Origin: Candidatus Coatesiibacteriota bacterium
GTDB taxonomy: Bacteria; RBG-13-66-14; B26-G2; JAUVZD01
NCBI GenBank assembly: GCA_030602715.1
Contig: JAUVZD010000017.1
Span: 1 to 15,173 of the forward strand
Length of the DNA: 15,173 bases
Direction: 5' to 3'
This document shows, piece after piece, positions 8,671 to 14,191 of this stretch. Every line of letters begins with the position of its first letter. Position 1 is the first letter of the stretch. The position numbers and the translations under genes are program-made. The notes below the pieces were generated by a model. It saw nothing but the letters and a program-made list of their open reading frames with translations. It ran no database searches and was not told the DNA's origin.

Positions 8671-10581
8671 TTATCTGGAAAGGGCCATGGTGCGCTCCAG
8701 GGTCTCGCCTATGGCGGTGAGGCGGAGTAGATAGACCCCGCTTGCCAGCTCCTCGCCGGTGAGGATGAGCGTGTGATTGCCCGCAGTATAGAAGCCTTGG
8801 GCTACCACCGCCACCTGCCGTCCGCCGAGGTCATAGAGTTCCAGGGTAATATCCCCGTCGGCGGGAAGGTTGAAGCCGATGGTCGTCTTCTCGCTCCAGG
8901 GATTGGGGTAGTTTTGAGCCAGAGCGAACTGTTGACCGCTGGGCGCAACATAGACACCACTCGCCCTTCCCAGGGTCTCGGTGCCGGAGGATCTGTTCAC
9001 CAGCACCGTCCAAATATAGCTCTTCCCCTCCACCACACCGGCATCCAGATAGCTGAAAGGGGAGTTACCGACAATGGGATGGTCGTTGACCTTGGTGGAG
9101 ATGCTAAATGAAGAACCACCTGAGGAAAGGTCGTTCTTTGTGAGTGCCTCCTTGCGGAAGATGTCAAAGCTGACCGTTGAGGTGGAGCCGCTATATTCCC
9201 AACTTATCAACATACCCTCGTCGGTTGCGGTGAGGGATACCCGTTGCTCAAAGATGCCCACAAACTCCGGCTTTCCGTCGTAGCAGATGAGGCACTCCGG
9301 CTGGGAGGTCTGGTCCTGGAAGCAGAAAACCACATCACCGATGCCGTCGTCATCTACATCCCCTATCGGTTCAACATCGTAGATGCGCTCGTTGTAGATG
9401 GGGCTCTCCGCCAATACTGTGCCGCTGTCCCCGCTGATGAACTTGACCACCTTGCCGTTCAGCGCTCCGGCGACCACATCGCAATATCCATCGTCGTCAA
9501 TGTCATCTATTGCCTGCACATTCCAGCAGTCCGAGCCCACCGAAGCGGACCACAGCTGGGTGCCGTCGGCGCCGGAGTAACAGAGAGCGTTGGAGGTCCA
9601 ACTGCCGAAGATAGCCTCCATCTTGCCGTCGCCGTCCACATCCGGCAGGGCAGCCACCTCTATCAAGTTGAAGCCGAAGGTCTCCGCCCAGATCTCCGAG
9701 CCGTCGCCTCCGGAGACGGCGTGGATGGAGCCGCTGGAATAACCGGTGAAGCAGGCGACGAAGATGTCGCTCACTCCGTCATCGTCCAGGTCGCCGGCGG
9801 TGCAAAGCGACCAGCCGTCGTTTGTCAATACATACGACCACAGGGGAGTGGTTACCGTGCCGGTGGAGGCTCCGTCTATGCAGTAAAGAGTATGGTCATA
9901 ATAGTTGCCCCCGCTGATGCAGACCACCTCCGGGATGCCGTCGCTGGTGATGTCCTCAATGTAATCAATATCCATTACCGCATCGTCGGGGCGGAAGATC
10001 CAGATGTAATCGCCGCCGCTCACGCCCCCGTCCAGGCAAGCGGCTATGCCCGAGCTTCCGCTCCAGCCTCCACAGGCGGCAAGAATCTCATTGTCTCCAT
10101 CATAGTTGATGTCCGGCATCACCGCCACGGAATAGACCCAGCCCCCACCAAGACCTCCCTGATAGCAGGACCACTGCCAGATGGTCTCCCCGTCAATACC
10201 GCTCTTGAGGATGACACAGCGCCCGGGGGGGTCATAGCCTCCCGGGGTGCCCATGACCACCTCACAGTAGCCGTCGTCGTCAACATCCGGGGCAACGGCG
10301 AGGGGCTTCACCCCCCAGATGCCCTTGCAGTCATCGTAATCCTTGGTCCATATGTCCGAGCCGTCAACGCCGGAGACGCAATAGAGCACATCGCCGAAGT
10401 CGGAGTAATAGCCGGCGAAGACCACATCGTCTATTCCCTCGTCGTCCAGGTCGGGAATGGGGCGGGCGGTGTATATGCCCCCGTCGTCGTTATACATCCA
10501 GATGACATCATCGGCGAGGGGGGCTAAGGGGAGGGAGAGGAGGAGGAAAAGTAGAATTAAATTTAACCTTTTGAAAGACAT
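8671..10581 (-). CDS. Secreted FG-GAP/beta-propeller protein with C-terminal sorting-like domain
   Basis: Residues 1-23 form a signal peptide (basic MSFKRLN, then a leucine-rich core), so the 636-aa product is exported. Residues about 24-435 hold eight calcium-loop repeats of the type PDxDDDGxxDVV (LDDEGIDD, VDDDGYCE, INYDGDNE, ITSDGIPE, LDDDGVSD, VDGDGKME, IDDDGYCD, VDDDGIGD), most followed by SGxDGxxIW. This is an FG-GAP/VCBS-like beta-propeller. Residues about 440-545 look like a fibronectin type III domain. Residues about 550-636 begin LAQNYPNPW and continue with LYDLGGRQV and LASGVYLLRL, the FlgD-like/Por-type C-terminal domain common in FCB and WOR-3-type bacteria, where related tails direct type IX secretion or surface attachment. 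The ATG at 10581 is chosen over an upstream TTG because GGAGG lies 7 bases before it and the signal peptide starts cleanly. Ligand unknown. Confidence 0.88.
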   Translation of the reverse strand: MSFKRLNLILLFLLLSLPLAPLADDVIWMYNDDGGIYTARPIPDLDDEGIDDVVFAGYYSDFGDVLYCVSGVDGSDIWTKDYDDCKGIWGVKPLAVAPDVDDDGYCEVVMGTPGGYDPPGRCVILKSGIDGETIWQWSCYQGGLGGGWVYSVAVMPDINYDGDNEILAACGGWSGSSGIAACLDGGVSGGDYIWIFRPDDAVMDIDYIEDITSDGIPEVVCISGGNYYDHTLYCIDGASTGTVTTPLWSYVLTNDGWSLCTAGDLDDDGVSDIFVACFTGYSSGSIHAVSGGDGSEIWAETFGFNLIEVAALPDVDGDGKMEAIFGSWTSNALCYSGADGTQLWSASVGSDCWNVQAIDDIDDDGYCDVVAGALNGKVVKFISGDSGTVLAESPIYNERIYDVEPIGDVDDDGIGDVVFCFQDQTSQPECLICYDGKPEFVGIFEQRVSLTATDEGMLISWEYSGSTSTVSFDIFRKEALTKNDLSSGGSSFSISTKVNDHPIVGNSPFSYLDAGVVEGKSYIWTVLVNRSSGTETLGRASGVYVAPSGQQFALAQNYPNPWSEKTTIGFNLPADGDITLELYDLGGRQVAVVAQGFYTAGNHTLILTGEELASGVYLLRLTAIGETLERTMALSR

Positions 10582-10621
10582 AGCATACCTCCAAAAGGAC
10601 AAAAAATTCTCTAAAAAAATT

Positions 10622-10675: not shown

Positions 10676-11293
10676 TTATTCCCTTGTCACTGTGATGACC
10701 TGCGATGACCACTGAGCATCAGGCCATCCACCAAGAATATCGGCTTCGCTTAACCACCCTTTCGGATTGGCAACAGCCATTATCTCAAATTGTTTGCCCA
10801 CATCAATGTCCCCCGCCCTTCCCAGATATACTTGCGTCATCCAGGTCCCACCGTTACTCACAGTTACACTCGGTTGCACCAAATATGCAGATGTATCCAC
10901 TGGACGTACAATCACCCATACTTCCGCATCTAGGTCAGTGACTGTTCCTTTGACATACGGTCGCCAGGGCACTATGGAGCCATCTTGAGGTGATTTAATT
11001 TGCATCTTCATGCTGGGTTCCGGTGTAGGTATTGATGTAACTTCCTTGGGCGATTCCATTACTTGTTCTGCGACAATATTAAAAATTGTATCTGTCTTCT
11101 CCTCTATTTTATGCTTAAGGTCTTCCTCTAGCCTTGCAGTTTCTATTCCAATCATTCCTGTGGCCACTATGTATCCAAACCCCCCGACAATTATCAAAAT
11201 CCGACGCCAAATAACCCTAGTAGGAGGAAAGAAATTTGCTAACGCTAGAAGTACTGCGCTGATTGCTTGCATTACTGTTAATAATATTCTCAT
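10676..11293 (-). CDS. Membrane protein, third gene of the shared-domain array, 205 aa
   Basis: Two hydrophobic segments (about 4-23 and 27-50) are followed by a short charged helix (ETARLEEDLKHKIEEK), a Pro/Thr linker (82-95) and the array's C-terminal domain (about 96-205). That domain contains SIVPWRPYVKGTV, EVWVIVRPVDTSAY, DVGKQFEIMAVANP and WPDAQWSSQVITVTRE. It is beta-rich and probably Ig-like; I cannot name the family with confidence. The ATG at 11293 overlaps the preceding gene's TGA as ATGA. It has AGGGG upstream and aligns with the MRSL start of its paralogue, so it is preferred over the ATG at 11299. It appears to be a shortened tandem copy of the gene just upstream: same domain and linker, but one membrane segment fewer and a shorter coiled region. 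No enzymatic motif seen. Confidence 0.75.
   Translation of the reverse strand: MRILLTVMQAISAVLLALANFFPPTRVIWRRILIIVGGFGYIVATGMIGIETARLEEDLKHKIEEKTDTIFNIVAEQVMESPKEVTSIPTPEPSMKMQIKSPQDGSIVPWRPYVKGTVTDLDAEVWVIVRPVDTSAYLVQPSVTVSNGGTWMTQVYLGRAGDIDVGKQFEIMAVANPKGWLSEADILGGWPDAQWSSQVITVTRE
10701..11075 (-). repeat. Tandem direct repeat, copy B (encodes linker plus shared domain)
   Basis: This stretch aligns without gaps to 11321-11695 at a constant offset of 620 bases. By hand count about 45 of 375 positions differ, so identity is about 88%. Both copies lie in the same reading frame within adjacent genes, indicating a fairly recent tandem duplication. Confidence 0.85.
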
Positions 11294-12063
11294 TTCCATC
11301 CCCTGGTTACCTCAACAACCTGCGATGACCATTGAGCTGCAGGCCAACCGCCAAGAATATCGGCTTCACTGAATACATCACTCGGATTGCCAACAGCCAT
11401 TATCTCAAATTGTTTACCCACATCAATGTCCCCCGCTCTTCCCAGATACACTTGTGTTATCCAGGTTCCATCATTACTAACAGTTGCACTAGGTTGCACC
11501 CAATATGCAGATGTGTCCACTGGACGTACAATCACCCATACTTCAGCATCTGGGTCGGCGACTGTTCCTCTTACATACGGTCGCCAGGGCACTATGGAGC
11601 CACCCTGAGGCGATTTAATTTGCATCTTTATGCTGGGTTCTGATGTAGGTATTGGTGTAACTTCCTTGGGGGCTTCCATCACCTGTTCTGCGACATCTTG
11701 GAAAACTTTTTTTCGCAAATCATCTACTATCTCGTTAGTAACTTCTAACTCCTCTTTAGTAACTTTTAATTCCTCTTTCATCACCACCGATTGCTGATTA
11801 AGCTCTTCCAAGCCTTTTTTAGTCTCCCATTCATTCATCGCTGAGGTCACTATAAATCCACCCACTACGACGGTTATTAGAATCCAAAGGAAAATGGTCC
11901 CCACGCGTCTCCTAACCCCAATTTCAATTATCACCTCAGCAACAATAAATACAACAGCCGCGATAGCTATTAAAACCCATCGGAAAATAGTTCCCAGAGG
12001 AATGAAAGTCGCGATTGCCAGAATAACTACGCATATCGCTCGTACAAAAATTAATGATCTCAT
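11290..12063 (-). CDS. Membrane protein with coiled coil, second gene of the shared-domain array, 257 aa
   Basis: Three hydrophobic segments (about 3-23, 24-48 and 55-78) lead into a likely coiled coil (about 80-125, with KEELKVTKEELEVTNE heptads), a Pro/Thr linker (131-144) and the array's beta-rich domain (about 145-257; SIVPWRPYVRGTV, EVWVIVRPVDTSAYWVQP, VGKQFEIMAVGNP, WPAAQWSSQ). The second and third membrane segments are an internal repeat with a 31-residue offset (GTIFRWVLI/GTIFLWILI, then FIV). I chose the ATG at 12063 because GGGGGAG lies 6 bases upstream and the paralogue starts the same way; ATGs at 12066 and 12078 are alternatives. The TGA overlaps the next ATG, so the genes are translationally coupled. 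No family recognised. Fold and topology are read by eye; a membrane-anchored sensor or adhesin-like role is a guess. Confidence 0.76.
   Translation of the reverse strand: MRSLIFVRAICVVILAIATFIPLGTIFRWVLIAIAAVVFIVAEVIIEIGVRRRVGTIFLWILITVVVGGFIVTSAMNEWETKKGLEELNQQSVVMKEELKVTKEELEVTNEIVDDLRKKVFQDVAEQVMEAPKEVTPIPTSEPSIKMQIKSPQGGSIVPWRPYVRGTVADPDAEVWVIVRPVDTSAYWVQPSATVSNDGTWITQVYLGRAGDIDVGKQFEIMAVGNPSDVFSEADILGGWPAAQWSSQVVEVTRGWK
11321..11695 (-). repeat. Tandem direct repeat, copy A
   Basis: Partner of 10701-11075, about 88% identical with no indels. The duplicated unit covers the linker and the shared beta-rich domain. The 5' parts encoding the membrane segments are much less alike, so either the duplication was partial or the membrane parts have diverged faster or been rebuilt. 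Confidence 0.85.
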
Positions 12064-12113
12064 CATTTTCTCCCCCATCTTACCTTCATTTTTTATCTCT
12101 CATTTTACCTCCT
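12063..12113 (-). promoter_or_regulatory. Chain of two minicistrons bridging the first and second array genes
   Basis: The last codons of the first array gene contain AGGAGG (12113-12108). One base after its TAA (12107-12105) begins the frame ATG AGA GAT AAA AAA TGA (12103-12086). Its TGA overlaps the ATG of a second frame encoding MKVRWGRK (12089-12063). The TGA of that frame overlaps the tandem ATG ATG that starts the 257-aa gene. Each join is ATGA or TGATG, the classic geometry for re-initiation. The peptides are 5 and 8 residues and probably matter only as ribosome relays. It may be chance in a purine-rich spacer. Confidence 0.35.
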
Positions 12114-12551
12114 CGTTACCTCAACAATCTGTGACTGCCATTGAGCATCGGGCCAATAATCTAACACCATTCCTTCAGACAACTTCTCGTCCGGATTCGC
12201 CACCGCCATAATCTCAAATAGCTTGCCACTATCTTTATCAGGTCCGCTCCCAAAAAAAGCGCATACTTTCCATGTTCCATCTTCTTTAGGTTTTAATCTC
12301 GGCTGTACCCAATAATCGGATACTTCCATCGGGTGCACAATAACCCAGACTTCTACATCTGGGTCCGCTACCGTTCCTTCTACATAATGTCGGTAGTCAA
12401 CTAAATTTCCATCCTTCGGTTCTTTAATAAGGATCTCGTCCTTTTGTTCCTCAAGCTCTTTGGTCGTTTCCTGATCATTACTCGTTTGCCCACACACAAT
12501 CGACACGGTTCCCACGAGGAGAACCAATAAAACTGCTATTTTCCGCAACAT
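12105..12551 (-). CDS. Secreted protein, first gene of the shared-domain array, 148 aa
   Basis: The N-terminus MLRKIAVLLVLLVGTVSIVCG is a signal peptide. Cleavage could fall after residue 21; the Cys at residue 20 has only a poor lipobox (SIVC), so a lipoprotein is possible but not supported. A short charged helix (TTKELEEQKDE) precedes the array's beta-rich domain (about 40-148). Conserved stretches are YVEGTVADPDVEVWVIVHP, YWVQP, DGTW, GKLFEIMAVANP, LSE and WPDAQWQSQIVEVTR. This copy is clearly diverged from the other two at DNA level but not at these motifs. The start at 12551 is chosen over longer frames because a perfect AAAGGAGG site stands 5 bases upstream and the signal peptide begins there. 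It is the first gene after an extended -10 promoter. Unlike its paralogues it has no extra membrane segments, so the same domain is made in free and anchored forms. Confidence 0.8.
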   Translation of the reverse strand: MLRKIAVLLVLLVGTVSIVCGQTSNDQETTKELEEQKDEILIKEPKDGNLVDYRHYVEGTVADPDVEVWVIVHPMEVSDYWVQPRLKPKEDGTWKVCAFFGSGPDKDSGKLFEIMAVANPDEKLSEGMVLDYWPDAQWQSQIVEVTRR

Positions 12552-12733: not shown

Positions 12734-14191
12734 ATGGCAATAGATTGGAAAGGAAACTTCAAGCGCCTGGATGATTTCCGCTGGATGATACCCCAAGACG
12801 CCTGGGAGGGGATGCGGGTGCCGGGCATCATCTATGCGGGGGAAAAATCCCTGGACATCATCCGCACCGACAGAACCCCGGCACAGATAATCGGGGTGGC
12901 GCACCTGCCGGGTATCGTCAAAGCCTCCCTGGCCATGCCCGACATCCACTGGGGCTACGGCTTCCCCATAGGCGGTGTGGCCGCGTTTGATGTAAATGAA
13001 GGCGTTATCTCCCCTGGAGGCGTTGGCTACGACATCAACTGCGGTGTTCGGTTGCTGCGGACTAATCTTGAGACAGATGAGGTCAAGCCCAAACTCCGCG
13101 AGCTGCTACAGGCTATCTACTCCGCGGTTCCTGCAGGCGTGGGCAAGAAGGGCAGGATTCGTATCTCTCGTAACGAGTTGGAGAAGGTGCTGGTGCAGGG
13201 CGCGCGCTGGGCGGTAAATAAAGGATACGGCTGGAACGAGGATCTGGCTCATACCGAGGAGGAAGGAAGTCTTGACGGAGCTAACCCCTCGGCAGTATCT
13301 GACCGAGCCTACGAACGCGGCCTTCCTCAGATCGGCACCCTGGGGGCAGGTAACCACTTTTTGGAGATTCAGCGTGTGGATGAGATCTACGATACTAAGG
13401 CCGCAGAGATCATGGGACTGCGCAAGGGGCAGATAGTAGTGATGATCCATACCGGTTCGCGTGGGTTCGGCTACCAGGTGTGCGACGACGCGGTAAAGAA
13501 GCTGGGCCACACTGTTGCGAAGTATCATCTCTCCATACCTGATCGGCAGCTTGCCTGCGCGCCGATCTCGTCACCTGAAGGCAAAGCCTACTTCGGTGCT
13601 ATGGCCGGGGCGGCAAACTACGCCTGGGCCAACCGCCAGGCGATTATGCACTGGGTCAGAGAGGCATTCGAGCAAGCCTTTGGCATGGGCGCGGAAAAAC
13701 TGGGTCTTCAACTGGTTTACGACGTGGCCCATAACATCGCCAAGTTCGAGGAGTACGAAATCGACGGTAAACGCCGCAGGCTCTGTGTGCATCGTAAGGG
13801 AGCAACTCGTGCGTTCGGGCCTGGACATCCAGACATACCCTCCGACTACCGCGATATAGGCCAGCCGGTCATCATCCCAGGTGACATGGGCACCGCATCC
13901 TACGTGCTTGTCGGCACCGAGAAGGCGATGCAGGAGAGCTTCGGCTCAACCTGTCACGGCGCAGGTCGTGTATGGTCACGCTCCAGGGCGCTGCGGGAAG
14001 TTCGCGGCTACGAGGTCAAATCCCGTCTGGAACGTGAAGGAATCCTGGTTCTATCGGTCAGCACCAAGACCCTTGCAGAGGAGACCCCCGAGGCATACAA
14101 GGACGTAGACGAAGTGGTGGAAGTGACCCATAACGCAGGTATCTCTGCAAAGGTCGCGCGGATGCGTCCCCTGGGGGTCATCAAAGGTTGA
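12734..14191 (+). CDS. rtcB: RNA-splicing/repair ligase RtcB
   Basis: RtcB joins RNA 3'-phosphate or 2',3'-cyclic phosphate ends to 5'-OH ends, using GTP and Mn2+, through a histidine-GMP intermediate in the cytoplasm. The 485 residues match the family's length. Active-site residues, by motif: Asp100 and Cys103 (GYDINCGVR), His208 (GAGNHFLE), His239 (IHTGSRG), His333 (VYDVAHNIAK) and the guanylylated His408 (STCHGAGR). Other conserved blocks are AMPDIHWGYGFPIGG, VHRKGATRAFGPG and PGDMGTASYVL. All are intact. The start is fixed by AAAGGAG six bases upstream. No archease or RtcA gene is in view. The stop overlaps the start of uvrC, suggesting one mRNA. In bacteria the role is repair of cleaved RNAs; the actual substrate here is unknown. 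Confidence 0.97.
   Translation: MAIDWKGNFKRLDDFRWMIPQDAWEGMRVPGIIYAGEKSLDIIRTDRTPAQIIGVAHLPGIVKASLAMPDIHWGYGFPIGGVAAFDVNEGVISPGGVGYDINCGVRLLRTNLETDEVKPKLRELLQAIYSAVPAGVGKKGRIRISRNELEKVLVQGARWAVNKGYGWNEDLAHTEEEGSLDGANPSAVSDRAYERGLPQIGTLGAGNHFLEIQRVDEIYDTKAAEIMGLRKGQIVVMIHTGSRGFGYQVCDDAVKKLGHTVAKYHLSIPDRQLACAPISSPEGKAYFGAMAGAANYAWANRQAIMHWVREAFEQAFGMGAEKLGLQLVYDVAHNIAKFEEYEIDGKRRRLCVHRKGATRAFGPGHPDIPSDYRDIGQPVIIPGDMGTASYVLVGTEKAMQESFGSTCHGAGRVWSRSRALREVRGYEVKSRLEREGILVLSVSTKTLAEETPEAYKDVDEVVEVTHNAGISAKVARMRPLGVIKG

Follow-up and report, generated by a model that had tools for sequence, protein, structure and literature searches.

A rare gene array carries one domain in predicted soluble and membrane-tethered forms in a Candidatus Coatesiibacteriota bacterium

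The main finding of this study is that three consecutive genes in a Candidatus Coatesiibacteriota bacterium end in the same domain, once behind a signal peptide and twice behind transmembrane (TM) segments, and that a pair of the same layout recurs in a distant lineage. Our preferred reading, held tentatively and at a little under even confidence, is that of a rare, probably transferred two-gene module presenting an exported Ig-like binding or scaffold domain in soluble and tethered forms. The earlier note had called this array the best candidate in this DNA for an undescribed system; it has the look of a small envelope module, not of a demonstrated new system. The domain family, itself uncharacterized, belongs to a familiar kind, that of exported Ig-like domains, and a literature search found no account of such a domain or array. 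Two things make the array of interest: no Pfam, NCBIfam or PHROG model matches this family of exported domains, whose soluble-plus-tethered pair occurs in two distant lineages, and duplication of a TM segment and of a heptad has diversified an anchor in a particularly clean way. Should the forms work together, they would constitute a small envelope assembly in uncultivated bacteria that is open to testing.

Layout of the array and the shared domain

The window, i.e. the whole stretch of DNA that was analyzed (15,173 nt), is the entire contig C7 of a 2.3-Mb genome. The array consists of three consecutive minus-strand ORFs spanning 10676-12551, where the earlier note had placed them, in the order g1, g2, g3 on that strand. 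Its features are as follows.

12105..12551, minus strand: g1 (148 aa), signal peptide MLRKIAVLLVLLVGTVSIVCG followed by Q, short charged stalk and exported domain; no lipobox
11290..12078, minus strand: g2 (262 aa), three TM segments, coiled coil, Pro-rich linker and domain
10676..11299, minus strand: g3 (207 aa), two TM segments, short stalk, Pro-rich linker and domain
12108..12437, minus strand: domain copy in g1
11293..11628, minus strand: domain copy in g2
10679..11011, minus strand: domain copy in g3
11803..11994, minus strand: internal duplication in g2, TM2 unit TIFRWVLIAIAAVVFIVAEVIIE and TM3 unit TIFLWILITVVVGGFIVTSAMNE (the bounds are those of the segments compared)
11731..11778, minus strand: 21-nt tandem repeat (one heptad) in the g2 coiled coil
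10678..11597, minus strand: tandem gene duplication, 10678-10977 (g3) versus 11298-11597 (g2)

Spacing is operon-like, with a gap of 26 nt between g1 and g2 and a g3 start that overlaps the g2 stop by 10 nt, and a strong Shine-Dalgarno sequence (aaaggagg) lies upstream of the g1 ATG. That the three genes end in one domain, as had been claimed, is real: the domain is about 110 residues long, the copies in g2 and g3 are 85% identical and those in g1 and g2 55%, and 39 columns are invariant when the three copies are aligned with two from an Omnitrophica genome. One detail of the earlier description, the motif YWVQP, does not extend to g3, which reads YLVQP. Identities of 53-85% across 110 residues, E-values near 1e-60 in profile searches and the purifying selection seen between g2 and g3 (below) exclude a chance resemblance. 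No copy beyond g1, g2 and g3 was detected by searching the whole genome, and the array domain contains no catalytic motif.

Anchors, duplications and topology

Hydropathy analysis gives one N-terminal hydrophobic segment in g1 (the signal peptide), three in g2 and two in g3. In g1 there is a possible signal peptidase I site between VCG and Q, and no match to the lipobox [LVI][ASTVI][GAS]C in the first 35 residues, which speaks against a lipoprotein. These counts agree with the earlier claim that the N-terminal context differs in each gene; the anchors of g2 and g3 are nevertheless homologous rather than independent, because g3 also carries a short heptad-like stalk and both share the Pro-rich linker VMExPKEVxxIPTxEP.

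How the two anchors came to differ can be read from their segments. The first segments, TM1, of g2 and g3 match each other. Both TM2 and TM3 of g2 have their best score with TM2 of g3 and with TM2 of the Omnitrophica tethered protein, and the likeness between TM2 and TM3 was equaled in none of 5000 protein shuffles and in one of 5000 DNA shuffles. The three-helix anchor is therefore most simply derived from a two-helix anchor by internal duplication. The two genes are themselves tandem duplicates under purifying selection: the duplicated stretch covers 300 nt at 86% identity, with dN 0.09, dS 0.42 and dN/dS of about 0.21.

As to topology, the loops of g2 contain two basic residues at the N terminus, one in loop 1 and three in loop 2, a distribution that favors N-in/C-out and hence an outward-facing domain. 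The positive-inside rule is ambiguous for the two-TM forms, g3 and its Omnitrophica counterpart; we infer that these also display the domain outward, since relatives with a signal peptide only are exported. Because the number of helices is odd in g2 and even in g3, the duplication must have flipped either the N terminus or the membrane side of the domain.

Relatives and origin of the array

The closest parallel is in Omnitrophica RBG_13_46_9 (MHFD01000046.1), where a signal-peptide gene, O1, is directly followed by a gene for two TM segments and a coil, O2, so that in both this genome and the window a signal-peptide gene directly precedes a TM-plus-coil gene and both end in the domain. O1, with the sequence MLRKIALSVV, is like g1, and the anchors of O2 and g3 can be aligned over their length (score 137 versus a mean of 31 for windowed shuffles, none of 2000 as high). 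The domains are about 60% identical. Unlike the array, the Omnitrophica pair has two genes rather than three, lacks the TM duplication and has other neighbors. A tree of the domain leaves g1 plus O1 versus g2 plus g3 plus O2 unsplit, and the case for common descent of the pair is therefore made by gene order, the signal peptide and the homology of the anchors. A search with the anchor by itself in 136 genomes returned no convincing relative outside the source genome.

A third carrier is a secreted NIDO-like protein in genome G277 (PF06119, a subthreshold match of 21.7 bits against a Pfam cut-off of 25). It resembles the array proteins in being secreted and in ending in the domain, which is about 53% identical, and differs in being encoded by a single gene without membrane anchor. 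The domain is thus exported in g1, O1 and this protein. It is rare, being present in 1 of 14 genomes of its own phylum, 1 of 285 Omnitrophota and 2 of 386 genomes in a broad sample, the genome of discovery being counted each time. Only two arrays are known, that in the window and that in Omnitrophica. Multi-copy arrays with alternate anchors therefore do recur beyond the source genome, in another phylum, and a restriction to one strain, which the earlier note had considered fatal to its proposal, is contradicted by the Omnitrophica pair. The interpretation offered in that note is borne out in part, above all because the soluble-plus-tethered layout recurs.

Composition sets the array apart from its surroundings. 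Its GC content is 0.444 versus 0.54 in the rest of the window, and its tetranucleotide profile correlates with that of the genome at r 0.34 (median 0.80), a value as low being found in 7 of 170 genome windows. Together with the rare distribution, this composition makes it likely that the array was acquired horizontally. A contaminating contig was ruled out as the source, with the backbone of the contig correlating with the genome at r 0.89; since the backbone fits the genome, the deviation is confined to the array and two ORFs at 378-1665. Synteny gives no readable empty site, as the RtcB neighbors in relatives are without AddAB and without the array.

These data also bear on a plain paralog expansion, in which the exported Ig-like proteins would be redundant and do no joint work, with anchors that came to differ by tandem duplication and drift. 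We consider this unlikely on balance, though worth serious attention: g2 and g3 arose by tandem duplication, simple internal duplications account for the difference in the g2 anchor, and other genomes carry two copies or one, but two distant lineages have kept a soluble-plus-tethered pair in the same order and selection on the domain is purifying.

Fold and nearest families

The array proteins score below the cut-off of every Pfam and NCBIfam model, PHROGs yielded weak coil or TM matches only, and a sequence search of the PDB returned nothing credible. The nearest model is Glucodextran_B (PF09136), at 14.6 bits for g3, 15.2 for g2, 21.0 for O1 (E 3e-4) and 13.6 for O2, against a cut-off of 27. 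It aligns over the first ~60 residues, with a pattern SPxDG...V.G.V in common; in contrast, the array domain has a C-terminal half of its own (FEIMAVANP...WPxAQW) and no enzyme attached. Two AlphaFold2 models, built from six sequences, have six strands at modest confidence (pLDDT 57 and 65); we took an Ig-like or Fn3-like fold to be a two-sheet all-beta sandwich of about seven strands. Foldseek found no significant match to the models (none with E <= 0.001, the best being 0.036). Their VIA-align neighbors are mostly Ig-, Fn3- or filamin-like, with Z up to 7.4, which according to the tool possibly reflects just a common arrangement, and include glucodextranase 1ug9 (Z 5.9, rmsd 2.6, 67 residues aligned, 24% identity). 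An Ig-like beta-sandwich is our best guess from these models.

A possible remote relative, which we refer to as the TDKWYIHP module, is found in G277, on a signal-peptide protein whose gene lies 2 kb from the NIDO-like gene and whose pattern reads YKVLVYVHTDKWYIHP...EDGNWTI.

L026:2748-3797 (G277): TM-plus-coil gene, followed after 4 nt by a signal-peptide gene with the TDKWYIHP domain

Like the array domain, this module has a G-V start, an aromatic W-V-x-P and a DG-W; in the module, however, the loop before DG-W is longer and the C-terminal half differs, and identity is ~20%. Kinship is suggestive only, with a pairwise BLAST E of 3e-4, an hhalign probability of 18% and an HMM E of 0.017, above 2000 decoys. 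Pfam does not match the module. It is found on a mannanase-CBM protein (L034), where it forms the end of a chain that also has a mannanase galactose-binding domain, on a GH17-like protein (L036; E 0.003 in a decoy-laden set), so labeled from a subthreshold Pfam match, and on a GH16-like protein (L038; E 7.6e-5 in the same set), so labeled by inspection only, Pfam giving no match. The earlier statement that the domain is attached to varied multidomain proteins is weakly borne out by the secreted NIDO-like carrier and by these possible remote carriers.

Such carriers, together with a glucodextranase module as best Pfam lead, would suit a CBM-like accessory module of Ig type that binds glycans of the cell surface or the environment, as such modules do in secreted glycoside hydrolases. 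We regard this as improbable, for the link to the TDKWYIHP family is weak by both hhalign and HMM and there is no hydrolase near the array in the window.

A model for the array

Returning to the preferred reading, a two-gene module with soluble and tethered forms, the first gene would provide a soluble domain, probably an Ig-like beta-sandwich, exported by the Sec pathway. The second would tether the same domain to the cytoplasmic membrane via TM helices, a coiled-coil stalk and a Pro-rich linker, presumably facing outward. The domain would most likely bind an envelope or extracellular ligand, either glycan or protein, or serve as a scaffold, and the two forms may act in one compartment and possibly cooperate. 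In the source genome, the tethered gene would have been duplicated, and the anchor of one copy lengthened by duplication of TM2 and of one heptad. A stronger version, in which the soluble and tethered forms co-assemble in an undescribed envelope complex and the TM and heptad duplications tune its reach or geometry, seems to us doubtful.

A self/non-self set was among the functions proposed earlier. A defense or self/non-self role, in which the tethered forms would be receptors and the soluble form their partner, finds no support apart from the one candidate gene given below, and we consider it very unlikely. PADLOC produced no credible match to the array proteins (the best, DpdC, had an E of 0.024 and fell on the g2 coiled coil), and these proteins have no effector domain. 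Plasmid and phage searches with the whole of g2 and with the domain gave no matches or chance ones, and viral contigs searched with g2, A2 and A3 gave none. A phage RNA polymerase match (30% identity, E 0.1) was dismissed as chance, and viral-contig matches of the TDKWYIHP protein were read as unrelated phage proteins. No defense gene lies near the copy in the window, whose AddAB and RtcB neighbors are of housekeeping type. Variable anchors and rarity would suit mobile conflict genes, and one defense candidate, the sole one nearby, is encoded ~3.2 kb downstream of the Omnitrophica pair.

L024:2130-3353, minus strand (Omnitrophica RBG_13_46_9): PADLOC candidate family PDC-S54, E 9e-61

Beyond it lies an HTH_3 gene. 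Least plausible of all is an envelope sensor whose tethered forms signal across the membrane on ligand binding, with the soluble form as modulator: TM helices, a coiled coil and an outward domain are a common sensor layout, but no form has a cytoplasmic output domain and there is no signaling gene nearby.

Neighboring genes in the window

The neighbors (AddAB, RtcB and a type IX secretion system (T9SS) FG-GAP protein) offer no functional lead.

8671-10602: protein with FG-GAP repeats and a C-terminal sorting domain for type IX secretion (TIGR04183, E 7e-8)
12734-14191: RtcB-type RNA ligase gene
378-1665: two overlapping low-GC (0.39-0.41) ORFs beside tRNA-Thr

The sorting domain indicates that the host probably has a T9SS. 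A second RtcB copy, 61% identical, lies at C5:44044-45489; most relatives in the phylum have one. Neither ORF at 378-1665 matches a Pfam family. One has a signal-like segment and the other a TM segment, and the tetranucleotide profile of the window's first 1876 nt correlates with that of the genome at an r of only 0.09.
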